This document shows, piece by piece, positions 21,754 to 29,874 of a stretch of DNA of 64,000 nt. How positions within the stretch are numbered: the first letter of the stretch is position 1; the number at the start of each line of letters is the position of its first letter. Below the pieces are notes generated by a model that had not been told where the DNA came from, did no database searches, and saw nothing but the letters and a program-made list of their open reading frames with translations. The position numbers and the translations under genes were made by a program. Origin of the DNA: Candidatus Geothermocultor quzhuomuensis (GTDB taxonomy: Bacteria > Actinomycetota > Aquicultoria > Geothermocultorales > Geothermocultoraceae); the NCBI GenBank assembly GCA_015711795.1, contig JACVJC010000002.1, positions 58,115-122,114 of the forward strand. Direction: 5' to 3'.

Positions 21754-22557
21754 ATGGAAAATAAAAGTAGAGATGTTCTTTTTCTTTATATTGATGGAGC
21801 TGCTCGGGGAAATCCAGGACCAGCTGGCATTGGCTTAGTTTTATTTGATGAGGAAGAGAGAGAAATTGAAAGTTATAATGAATTTATTGGAGTGAAAACT
21901 AATAATTTTGCAGAATATACTGCTTTAAAGATTGGTCTTGAAAAAGCTAAAAAATATAAGCCTTTAAAACTCACTATTTTTTCCGACAGCGAGCTTTTAG
22001 TCTCCCATTTAACGGGAAAATACAAGGTTAGAAGTTCTAACTTGTTAAAAATTTTTCAGGAGGTCAAGGAAAAGATAAAGGACTTCAATCAAGTTAAAAT
22101 TAAAAATATTTCCCGTGAAGAAAACTTTCGAGCTGATAAATTAGCTAATCAGGCTATCGATAATCATTTAAATCGCAATGAAAAGGAAGGAATATTTGAG
22201 CTAACTGTTAAAAGTCATTTTGACGCAGCTCATTTTTTGAGAGGTTATCCTGGTGAGTGTTCTAAGCTACATGGTCATACCTGGGAAGTAGAGGTAACAA
22301 TTGGTGGAAGGAAACTTAATGAGATTGAGATTTTATATGATTTTCGAGATTTAAAGCAAGAATTAAAAAAGTTATTAAATAAGTTTGACCATAAATACTT
22401 AAACGAAATTCCCCCTTTTGATAATATTTCTCCAACTGGTGAAAATCTAGCTCGCCAACTCTTTTATGAAATTGAGGCTCTTTTGCCGTCAGGGATTTTT
22501 TTAAAAGAAGTGAGTGTTTGGGAATCCCCTGAAGCAAAGGTTACTTACCATCGCTAA
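21754..22557 (+). CDS. Fusion: RNase HI-like N-terminus + 6-carboxytetrahydropterin synthase (QueD/PTPS) C-terminus
   Basis: N-term LYIDGAARGNPGPAGIG, NNFAEYTAL, FSDSELLV, NFRADKLAN; C-term FELTVKSHFDAAHFLRGYPGECSKLHGHTWEVEVTI, LYDFRDLKQ, FDHKYLN, PTGENLA, VSVWESP. Confidence 0.88.
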   Translation: MENKSRDVLFLYIDGAARGNPGPAGIGLVLFDEEEREIESYNEFIGVKTNNFAEYTALKIGLEKAKKYKPLKLTIFSDSELLVSHLTGKYKVRSSNLLKIFQEVKEKIKDFNQVKIKNISREENFRADKLANQAIDNHLNRNEKEGIFELTVKSHFDAAHFLRGYPGECSKLHGHTWEVEVTIGGRKLNEIEILYDFRDLKQELKKLLNKFDHKYLNEIPPFDNISPTGENLARQLFYEIEALLPSGIFLKEVSVWESPEAKVTYHR

Positions 22558-22669
22558 CCCAACAGCTAAACAGCACTCTGTTTAGTTACTTTGTTAGTCT
22601 GCTTGCTTGTTCGCCTAACGGCTGGTTAGCTGCTGGCTTGTTGGTTGGTCAGCCTATAGCTGAAGGAAG

Positions 22670-22849
22670 TGAGCCCCAAGTAGATTGGTAATTCTTACTT
22701 ACTTAACAGTTTCCATTTCGTGCTCTTCAAATTAAGGTTTTGCTCACCCCCCCGCGTTCGGGTGAGGAAACGCGGACAAAAACCTATTAGATTTTCAGAG
22801 CCGCTTCTGGTACCTGTTAAGGGTAAGAGCCAATACTTCTTGGGGCTCA
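22670..22849 (+). ncRNA. 6S RNA-like rod-shaped structured RNA (candidate)
   Basis: Nested stems: TGAGCCCCAAG/CTTGGGGCTCA (11 bp), ATTGG/CCAAT, TTCTTAC/GTAAGAG, TTAACAG/CTGTTAA, central bubble with 3' strand hairpin CAGA/TCTG, AGGTTTTG/CAAAAACCT, apical CTCACCC/GGGTGAG. Confidence 0.6.
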
Positions 22850-22927
22850 AACCAATCTTAAATATTGACTCCAAAGTTGTCAAGGATTTTTTTAATAAAA
22901 ATTTTTAATAGTTAGTTTAGTTAAAGC

Positions 22928-23062
22928 TTAATAAAAACGGGTAATTACTAGAACGAAGATAAAAAAAACAATAGTTATAATAGTAGCAATGATAAGACTT
23001 TGCCAGACTACTGGATCTTCTTTACGAACAAAATTTCTAACTACTTCAATAAACTTTTCCAT
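22928..23062 (-). CDS. Small single-pass membrane protein (44 aa, not in ORF track)
   Basis: AAAGGA-type SD then MEKFIEVVRNFVRKEDPVVWQSLIIATIITIVFFIFVLVITRFY. Confidence 0.5.
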   Translation of the reverse strand: MEKFIEVVRNFVRKEDPVVWQSLIIATIITIVFFIFVLVITRFY

Positions 23063-23110
23063 TTTCCTTTAAATATTCCTTTTTGGGAGACTCTTTAAAA
23101 CCTTTATTAA

Positions 23111-23182
23111 GCCCCCAGTGGGTTCTCGCCACGCAATCTGGCTATCAACCATGGGGGAGGGAAAGAACCCTCCAATGGAGGG
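23111..23182. other. Structured intergenic element of unknown class
   Basis: CCCCCA/TGGGGG + TGG/CCA, inner GCCA/TGGC, GGGTTC vs GAACCC (interleaved), CCCTCC/GGAGGG hairpin. Confidence 0.5.
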
Positions 23183-23315
23183 CAAACTAATCGTATCGGT
23201 TATTAAATTAAGTGTCAACCAATCTGAAGTGAAGCTTTAAAAAATTTTCATTTTGTCTTTGACCTTCAATTTTGTTAAAATAAGATTACTTTCTTTAAAA
23301 TTTTTGGTGAGCAAA

Positions 23316-27702: not shown

Positions 27703-27840
27703 TATTGCTTGAATAAAGCCTTTCTTCAATACTTTAAAAATTGATAAACCGAAGCCATTTTGCCAAACTAAATTGTTTACTTGACTTGATTTGTTTTTGG
27801 TGTTAAGTTTAAGGTGAACTTTCAAATTTAGTTAAATTAT

Positions 27841-27904
27841 TGTGGGGTGCGAGGAATCACAGTCTCTAGTTTGGGCGCACTTGGGCTGTGAGGAGCAAAT
27901 AGTG
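27841..27904 (+). promoter_or_regulatory. Candidate riboswitch/attenuator 5' of the subtilase gene (possible c-di-GMP-II-like)
   Basis: Interleaved helices GTGCG(27847)/CGCAC(27876) and TCACAG(27857)/CTGTGA(27886); TTTGGGCGCACTTG and ATAGTGAAACCGACC sequence elements; followed directly by a terminator. Confidence 0.45.
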
Positions 27905-27932
27905 AAACCGACCCGAAGGTCGGTTTTCTTTT
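27905..27932 (+). terminator. Intrinsic terminator upstream of the subtilase start
   Basis: AAACCGACC-CGAA-GGTCGGTTT then TCTTTTT. Confidence 0.85.
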
Positions 27933-27969: not shown

Positions 27970-29187
27970 GTGAAGTTAAGAGTTTTTTTAGGAGTTGTTT
28001 TTATTATTGCCCTTGTTGTCATTTTTTATACCCTGGTGGGATTTGCTTTTGGAAGAAGTGGTAGGATGGAGCGAAAGATAGTTGTTTTTAAATCAGGTAT
28101 TTTGAACGAGCCAGCTCGAGAAGTTTTAGTAAAACAGTTTGGCGGGGTTAAGATTAAGGATTTGACTTTAATCGATGGAATGGCTGTGCTTTTACCACCT
28201 CAAGCAGAGGAAGCTTTAGTCCATCAGGCGGGAGTTTTAAGAATTGATGATGACATTATAGTTGAAGCTTTAATTAAGGGTGGCGTGGCTGGAAAACCAG
28301 CTCCTCCTCAACCAGTTGAAAGTTTACCTTGGGGTGTCAATCGAATTGATGCTGACTTAGCATGGGGCACGAGTACGGGTGACCCGATTAAAGTTGCTAT
28401 CATTGATACTGGAATTGATTTAGCCCATCCTGATTTGAAAGCCAATATTAAGGGTGGATACAATGCTATTAATCCAACCAAATCTCCTAATGATGATAAT
28501 GGCCATGGCACTCATGTAGCTGGAATTGTTGCTGCCATCGATAATGAAATTGGAGTGATTGGCGTTGGTCCACAAATTGACCTTTATGCAGTCAAAGTTT
28601 TGAGTCGCACCGGTTCTGGCTACCTCTCTGATGTGATTGAAGGACTTGACTGGGCAATTTCTAATGGAATGCAAGTTGTTAATATGAGTTTGGGCACAAA
28701 TACTGATGTTCAATCTTTCCGCGATGCGGTAATACGAGTTAGTCAAGCTGGTATTATTCAAGTCGCTGCTGCAGGCAATAATTCTGGTGGTTCAGTTACT
28801 TATCCAGCGGCTTATCCAGAAGTAATTGCTGTTTCTGCTACTGATTCTAGTGATTTAATTGCTTCTTTTTCTTCAGTTGGTCCTGAGATTGATTTAGCGG
28901 CACCAGGGGTAAATATTTATTCAACCTATAAAGGTTCAACTTATAAAACATTATCAGGGACTTCTATGGCTTCTCCTCATGTCGCTGGAACAGTAGCTGA
29001 TATTTTAGCAACACCAGCTCGAGCTCCTTATGACAGTAATCTCAATGGAGTTTGGGAACCATCTGAAGTAAAAGCAGTTTTACAGGCAACAGCTGATGAT
29101 TTAGGAGTAGTTGGTTTTGATAATTATTATGGCTACGGCTTAGTCGATACCGAAGAAAGTGTCACGGGAATTCAAACTAATCTCTAA
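27970..29187 (+). CDS. S8 subtilisin-like serine protease, secreted
   Basis: VAIIDTGIDLAHPDL, NGHGTHVAGIVAA, SGTSMASPHVAG; N-terminal TM/signal segment; SD AAAGGAGGTGA. Confidence 0.96.
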   Translation: MKLRVFLGVVFIIALVVIFYTLVGFAFGRSGRMERKIVVFKSGILNEPAREVLVKQFGGVKIKDLTLIDGMAVLLPPQAEEALVHQAGVLRIDDDIIVEALIKGGVAGKPAPPQPVESLPWGVNRIDADLAWGTSTGDPIKVAIIDTGIDLAHPDLKANIKGGYNAINPTKSPNDDNGHGTHVAGIVAAIDNEIGVIGVGPQIDLYAVKVLSRTGSGYLSDVIEGLDWAISNGMQVVNMSLGTNTDVQSFRDAVIRVSQAGIIQVAAAGNNSGGSVTYPAAYPEVIAVSATDSSDLIASFSSVGPEIDLAAPGVNIYSTYKGSTYKTLSGTSMASPHVAGTVADILATPARAPYDSNLNGVWEPSEVKAVLQATADDLGVVGFDNYYGYGLVDTEESVTGIQTNL

Positions 29188-29252: not shown

Positions 29253-29655
29253 GGGAAGTAGACCGGGTGGTCACTCCCTGATAATAAAGCTTATCAGGGA
29301 GAGGAAAGTCCGGGCTTCACAGGGCGAGGTGGCTGCTAACAGCAGCTCGTTGTGAGACGAGGAAAGTGCCACAGAGAGCAAACCGCCTCTTATTATGTTG
29401 AGGTAAGGGTGAAAGGGTGGTGTAAGAGACCACCGCTCTGGTGGTAACATCAGAGGCATGGTAAACCCCACCTGGAGCAAGGCCAAATAGAGAAGGAAGG
29501 TTATCTGCTTTGAGCGGAGAGCCTGCCATGTTGCCCGCATGGCTATAACTTCTGGGTTGGCTGCTTGAGTCCAATGGCAACATTGGACCTAGATAGATGA
29601 CCACCACCCCTTGTTAAAAATGGGGTACAGAACCCGGCTTATAGGTCTGCTTCCC
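29253..29655 (+). ncRNA. rnpB: RNase P RNA, bacterial class A
   Basis: GGGAAGTAGACCGGGTGGTC..GAGAGGAAAGTCCGGGCTTCACAGGGC.., GAGGAAAGTGCCACAGAGAGCAAACCGCC, GGTGAAAGGGTGG, terminal ACAGAACCCGGCTTATAGGTCTGCTTCCC; TATAAT at 29241. Confidence 0.95.
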
Positions 29656-29874
29656 TTTTTTAGTTAGAAGTTAACAGTAAGGAGAGAGCAGAAAATAGTT
29701 AGCAGATAGCAGTGAGCAGACTGAAGAGCTGAAGCTTGTCCCTTCATTGCATTCAAGGCAAGCTTTAGGCCGAAGCCCTGAGTAAAGCGAAGGAACTAGG
29801 GATTAAAAGGTAGGCAGGGCAGATAGGTCGGGCAGTCAAAATTTATTAGTTTAGTGTCTTGTTTATTGATGATA

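Follow-up and report, generated by a model that had tools for sequence, protein, structure and literature searches.

A structured RNA of deep-branching Actinomycetota that resembles 6S RNA in outline only

The window (the whole 64,000-nt stretch of Candidatus Geothermocultor quzhuomuensis DNA analysed here) contains an intergenic segment at 22670-22849, between a plus-strand ORF in which RNase HI and 6-pyruvoyl-tetrahydropterin synthase (PTPS) are fused (21754-22557) and a DUF498 ORF (+) whose start codon is that at 23253 or a later one. The initial annotation had drawn this segment as a long rod, and the rod is borne out; the plus strand folds at -74.5 kcal/mol (z -5.8), far more stably than its dinucleotide shuffles, none of 200 of which folds as well. 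The complementary strand reaches -79.0 kcal/mol (z -6.6 against dinucleotide shuffles); the two strands therefore fold about equally well, and the choice between them has to come from other evidence than folding. The features of the locus are as follows.

21754-22557, plus strand: RNase HI-PTPS fusion (Pfam PF13456/PF00075 and PF01242), convergent with the RNA; a syntenic marker outside it.
About 22848 to 22666, minus strand: structured RNA, window copy (diverged paralogue), matched by model R2 and a row of alignment A4.
22878-22883, minus strand: -35 box TTGACA; TTGAC stands at the corresponding place in 41 of 46 members.
22855-22860, minus strand: -10 box TAAGAT after a 17-nt spacer, assigned from promoter scores; transcription start predicted near 22848.
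22834-22847, minus strand: closing stem P1, 5' strand; 97.7% of cells paired, 7 of 14 pairs changed on both sides.
22672-22685, minus strand: closing stem P1, 3' strand; same P1 pairing data.
22800-22813, minus strand: inner loop and helix, 5' strand (GUACCAGAAGCGGC); near-invariant A4 columns, with helix 4 covarying U-A/G-C/A-U.
22709-22725, minus strand: inner loop and helix, 3' strand (GAGCACGAAAUGGAAAC); conserved A4 columns and covariation.
23112-23157, minus strand: conserved second hairpin element CCCCCAUGG...CACUGGGGG, inside a small unit upstream of the window RNA.

The small unit (23218-22928, minus strand) consists of a promoter, TTGACA-N17-TACGAT (23218-23190), the hairpin and a 44-codon ORF with a single transmembrane segment (23062-22928, minus strand), for which Pfam gave only a sub-threshold match to DUF5654. 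The second hairpin element had no Rfam match in the loci scanned; the same hairpin starts within a few nucleotides of the 3' end of the structured RNA at eight loci (L044, L047, L048, L113, L124, L138, L153 and L176). Elsewhere in the window, a c-di-GMP-II-GAG riboswitch (27836-27922, 45.3 bits) lies upstream of an S8-type peptidase-like ORF (27970-29187), and RNase P RNA occupies 29255-29657; in L044 and L048 RNase P RNA is found about 500 nt from the structured RNA.

A BLASTN search of relatives gave one convincing match, in another family and at the same syntenic place after a PTPS gene. Model R1, built from the window copy and this homologue, had matches in 15 genomes of the class, among them the two it was built from, and in a single genome of another class. 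Model R2 matched 26 of 36 Candidatus Aquicultoria genomes, 36 of 398 genomes of the phylum (these 26 included) and 65 of 201 sampled Coriobacteriia, often with two copies per genome, while the sampled Actinomycetes genomes held no convincing member; the E-values of the covariance models are rough, owing to short calibration. Several genomes carry two to four copies. Family f32 has weaker, shorter R2 matches, which share the closing stem. In the window, R2 matched the minus strand at 22848-22664 with 61.1 bits, a score owed in part to construction, since A4 includes the window copy among its 46 rows; the plus strand gave no R2 match. The recovery of other members by R1, which was made from the window copy and a single relative, is an independent test of the membership of the window copy.

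A DNA pattern derived from the conserved core was scanned over 85,462 species genomes and returned 64 stretches. Where both closing stem and promoter are present, the label is nearly always Actinomycetota (Coriobacteriia, Ca. Aquicultor, Ca. Oleimmundimicrobium and unclassified actinobacterial MAGs), a few standing under vaguer labels such as 'unidentified bacterium'; in the NCBI taxonomy Aquicultor and Oleimmundimicrobium belong to Candidatus Aquicultoria. The matches in Lachnospiraceae and others (L064, L070, L071, L079 and more) have neither closing stem nor promoter, several lie in coding sequence, and they look like chance matches. Two record names look doubtful, namely those of L103 (Slackia heliotrinireducens) and L110 (Aeromicrobium): the genome of L103 corresponds to one from the window's class, its 6S coordinates being those of G002, and the L110 locus is of Coriobacteriia type.

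Alignment A4 holds 46 members, aligned from sequence alone. The 29-pair structure was picked by inspection of A4 and its sequences are related, not independent, so that the controls flatter it somewhat; with this proviso 95.2% of its cells are standard pairs, against 82.3% after shuffling and 28-49% when the structure is slid along the alignment. Covariation in relatives, which the initial annotation had proposed as a check, is strong: 193 cells are changed on both sides, compared with 69.6±8.3 in shuffles, double-sided changes occur in 17 of the 29 pairs, and the covariation score is 0.472 against a control value of 0.227. Pair 8-200 is A-U in 23 members, G-C in 22 and C-G in one, while pair 55-150 is U-A in 25, G-C in 20 and A-U in one; judged from the alignment, such pair types would be hard to obtain without real pairing. 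The earlier proposal that an RNA gene of about 180 nt, structured and unannotated, lies here is thus supported by strong covariation, its 11-bp closing stem is real and kept in homologues with compensatory changes, and its TTAACAG/CTGTTAA helix is present.

The strand is the opposite of the one first assumed. G-U cells outnumber A-C cells in A4 (191 against 26), which places the RNA on the minus strand, and nearly every homologue read has TTGAC-N17-TA...T just before the closing stem on that strand; upstream of members the promoter has a mean of 2.9 mismatches in 12, whereas shuffles average 5.4 and the opposite strand 6.1. The G-U excess and the widely shared TTGAC box together settle the strand as minus.

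The rod is built of a conserved terminal-stem module (P1 and a purine-rich loop), a conserved inner loop (GUACCAGNAGC/GAAANGGRAA) and a variable arm that ends, in most members, in a GNRA-type tetraloop. P1 holds a G-U pair retained in 43 of 46 members, and the outer loop is, as a lead only, a candidate loop-E (GAAA/AGUA). The initially described central bubble, with its CAGA/TCTG hairpin, is not conserved across homologues. There, an asymmetric loop of conserved sequence is flanked by two C-G pairs that do not vary and by a covarying helix that carries a bulged A; these CC/GG pairs, which interrupt the conserved loop, and the covarying helix leave the 46 members without a conserved large open central bubble of the kind by which 6S RNA mimics an open promoter.

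The source genome has at least three copies of the structured RNA. The copy on C26 (139 bits) is canonical in sequence and lies beside an RNase_H_2 exonuclease; that on C14 (62 bits, 94 nt) keeps the stem module, with the core deleted. The window copy stands at the shared syntenic place but has diverged (61 bits), having lost 5 nt near P3 and the GAAAG loop. It nevertheless retains an intact promoter, P1 and core, and it has the features that define the family: P1 with covariation, the conserved inner loop and a promoter 5' of P1. As a paralogue it has diverged with compensating changes, and it might be decaying.

The initial annotation had called the RNA 6S-like on the strength of its outline, and as family membership this does not hold. 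The Rfam search that it suggested gave no match to RF00013 at E<=10 on 22500-23260 and none at the gathering score on the window. The canonical 6S gene of the source genome lies on another contig (G000:C7:17948-18136, 74.6 bits), so that the window RNA was rejected as the 6S gene of its genome; R2 scores at most 4.7 bits on that gene and gives noise on two further 6S loci. Of the two observations that the initial annotation had jointly taken to tell against itself, a 6S gene elsewhere was found and a lack of conservation here was not, the locus being conserved. A second, diverged 6S RNA, like 6S-2 of B. subtilis, that binds the RNA polymerase holoenzyme as a promoter decoy would account for the similar length and rod outline and for the independent sigma-A-type promoter. 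It would also fit the way in which the two RNAs track one another in Aquicultoria, where 6S occurs in 27 of 36 genomes: 24 have both RNAs, 7 neither, 3 only 6S and 2 only the structured RNA (Fisher p 0.0004), a co-occurrence that is only suggestive, as the genomes do not count as independent cases, a single family supplying five of the seven with neither, and as incompleteness plays a part too. In Coriobacteriia, however, 6S is found in 181 of 201 genomes whether or not the structured RNA occurs (most below Rfam's gathering score), and the sequence-conserved loop with its invariant pairs takes the place of an open bubble; we regard a second 6S RNA as unlikely. In family f6 (G005, G017, G022, G028 and G030) neither an RF00013 6S RNA nor the structured RNA was detected in the five genomes.

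An actinobacterial RNA of the Ms1 kind, binding core RNA polymerase and unrelated to Ms1 or too diverged for detection, appears similarly improbable. The phylum is shared, as is a rod with a conserved inner loop; the RNA has its own promoter of the sigma-A type, as does, reportedly, Ms1 (PMC4191392), and further types of RNA polymerase-binding RNA in bacteria are anticipated by the authors of PMC11077062. Against this, Rfam Ms1 (RF02566) has no match in the window or in the members scanned, and on a genuine Ms1 (L166, 296 bits with RF02566, found through a published probe sequence; PMC4191392) R2 scores only 4.4 bits with filters off, so that Ms1 membership was rejected. Ms1 is, moreover, about 300 nt long and was found in species without a detected 6S (PMC11077062), in contrast to the present case, where a 6S gene exists.

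The genomic context bears on the remaining alternatives. Most copies are convergent with an RNase HI/PTPS/C4 zinc-ribbon cluster in both classes; RNase HI is a neighbour in 37 of 51 loci and PTPS in 31 of 51, always on the 3' side of the RNA and on the opposite strand, and a DtxR-type gene lies on the 5' side in 23 of 51. RNase HI and PTPS, a single ORF in the window, are encoded separately at those Coriobacteriia loci that were read. That the place of the RNA is shared by two classes suggests inheritance by vertical descent. A cis-acting leader or terminator structure would suit L113 and L176, where two short, diverged copies directly precede a 40-44-codon membrane ORF homologous to the 44-codon ORF of the window, in the order promoter, RNA, hairpin, ORF and all in one direction; on account of these loci some members may be leaders. 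In most members, however, the first gene that can be recognised beyond the 3' end runs convergently, as does the PTPS gene that follows the window copy; most members are therefore not leaders of a downstream gene, and such a role is highly unlikely as the general explanation. A MITE-like mobile element with folding terminal inverted repeats, which a stem joining both ends and two to four copies in several genomes might recall, can be dismissed: the neighbourhood is constant across two classes, the promoter lies outside the stem at a fixed distance, the G-U pair in P1 breaks DNA palindromy and the inner helix covaries, and a mobile element was rejected on this synteny and these G-U pairs.

We favour the reading that 22848-22666 (minus strand) holds the gene of a structured RNA of about 185 nt, transcribed on its own, that probably acts in trans through a bound protein. 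Its own promoter, TTGACA-N17-TAAGAT (22883-22855), would drive transcription of an RNA predicted to fold as a rod with constant P1 module, conserved inner loop and variable arm. Three features suit an RNA that binds protein: unpaired bases that do not vary, a G-U pair kept in P1, and paralogues of modular build. From the conservation of the unpaired bases and of the P1 wobble we infer that a protein may be bound through the conserved stem and loops, and the bound RNA could work as a decoy or scaffold. RNA polymerase would be one possible partner, although nothing here singles it out. The window RNA is a diverged member of a conserved family of deep-branching Actinomycetota. More tentatively, this family may be an undescribed class of protein-binding RNA, ancestral to Coriobacteriia and Ca. 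Aquicultoria, with a constant terminal stem and exchangeable inner modules, forming a ribonucleoprotein distinct from, and beside, that of 6S.

Nothing in Rfam 15 matches the family, and a small literature search found no relevant report of such an RNA in Coriobacteriia or Aquicultor; its novelty is meant in these two senses. Class-level conservation, strong covariation, frequent presence in two copies per genome and absence from Rfam point to a ribonucleoprotein or regulator that has gone unrecognised in deep Actinomycetota. RNAs that serve RNA polymerase in this phylum (Ms1, CoRP, 6S) are an open topic, to which the structured RNA adds a defined candidate.

Among known systems, Y RNAs have a terminal stem as a possible protein handle and a variable inner part. 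The structured RNA is like these and the Ro-binding YrlA in both respects; it differs in having no tRNA-like part and no Rfam match, and a Y RNA was rejected as no TROVE (Ro) protein was found in any of 36 Aquicultoria genomes. With Ms1 it shares an actinobacterial setting, a rod shape, a conserved inner region and a sigma-A-type promoter, but Ms1 is much longer, R2 has no match on it, and the carriers of the structured RNA have 6S. With 6S (SsrS, RF00013) it shares a length of about 180 nt, a rod with closing stem and its own sigma-A-type promoter; it differs in lacking any sequence or model match and a conserved open bubble, and in co-existing with a canonical 6S RNA in most of its carriers.
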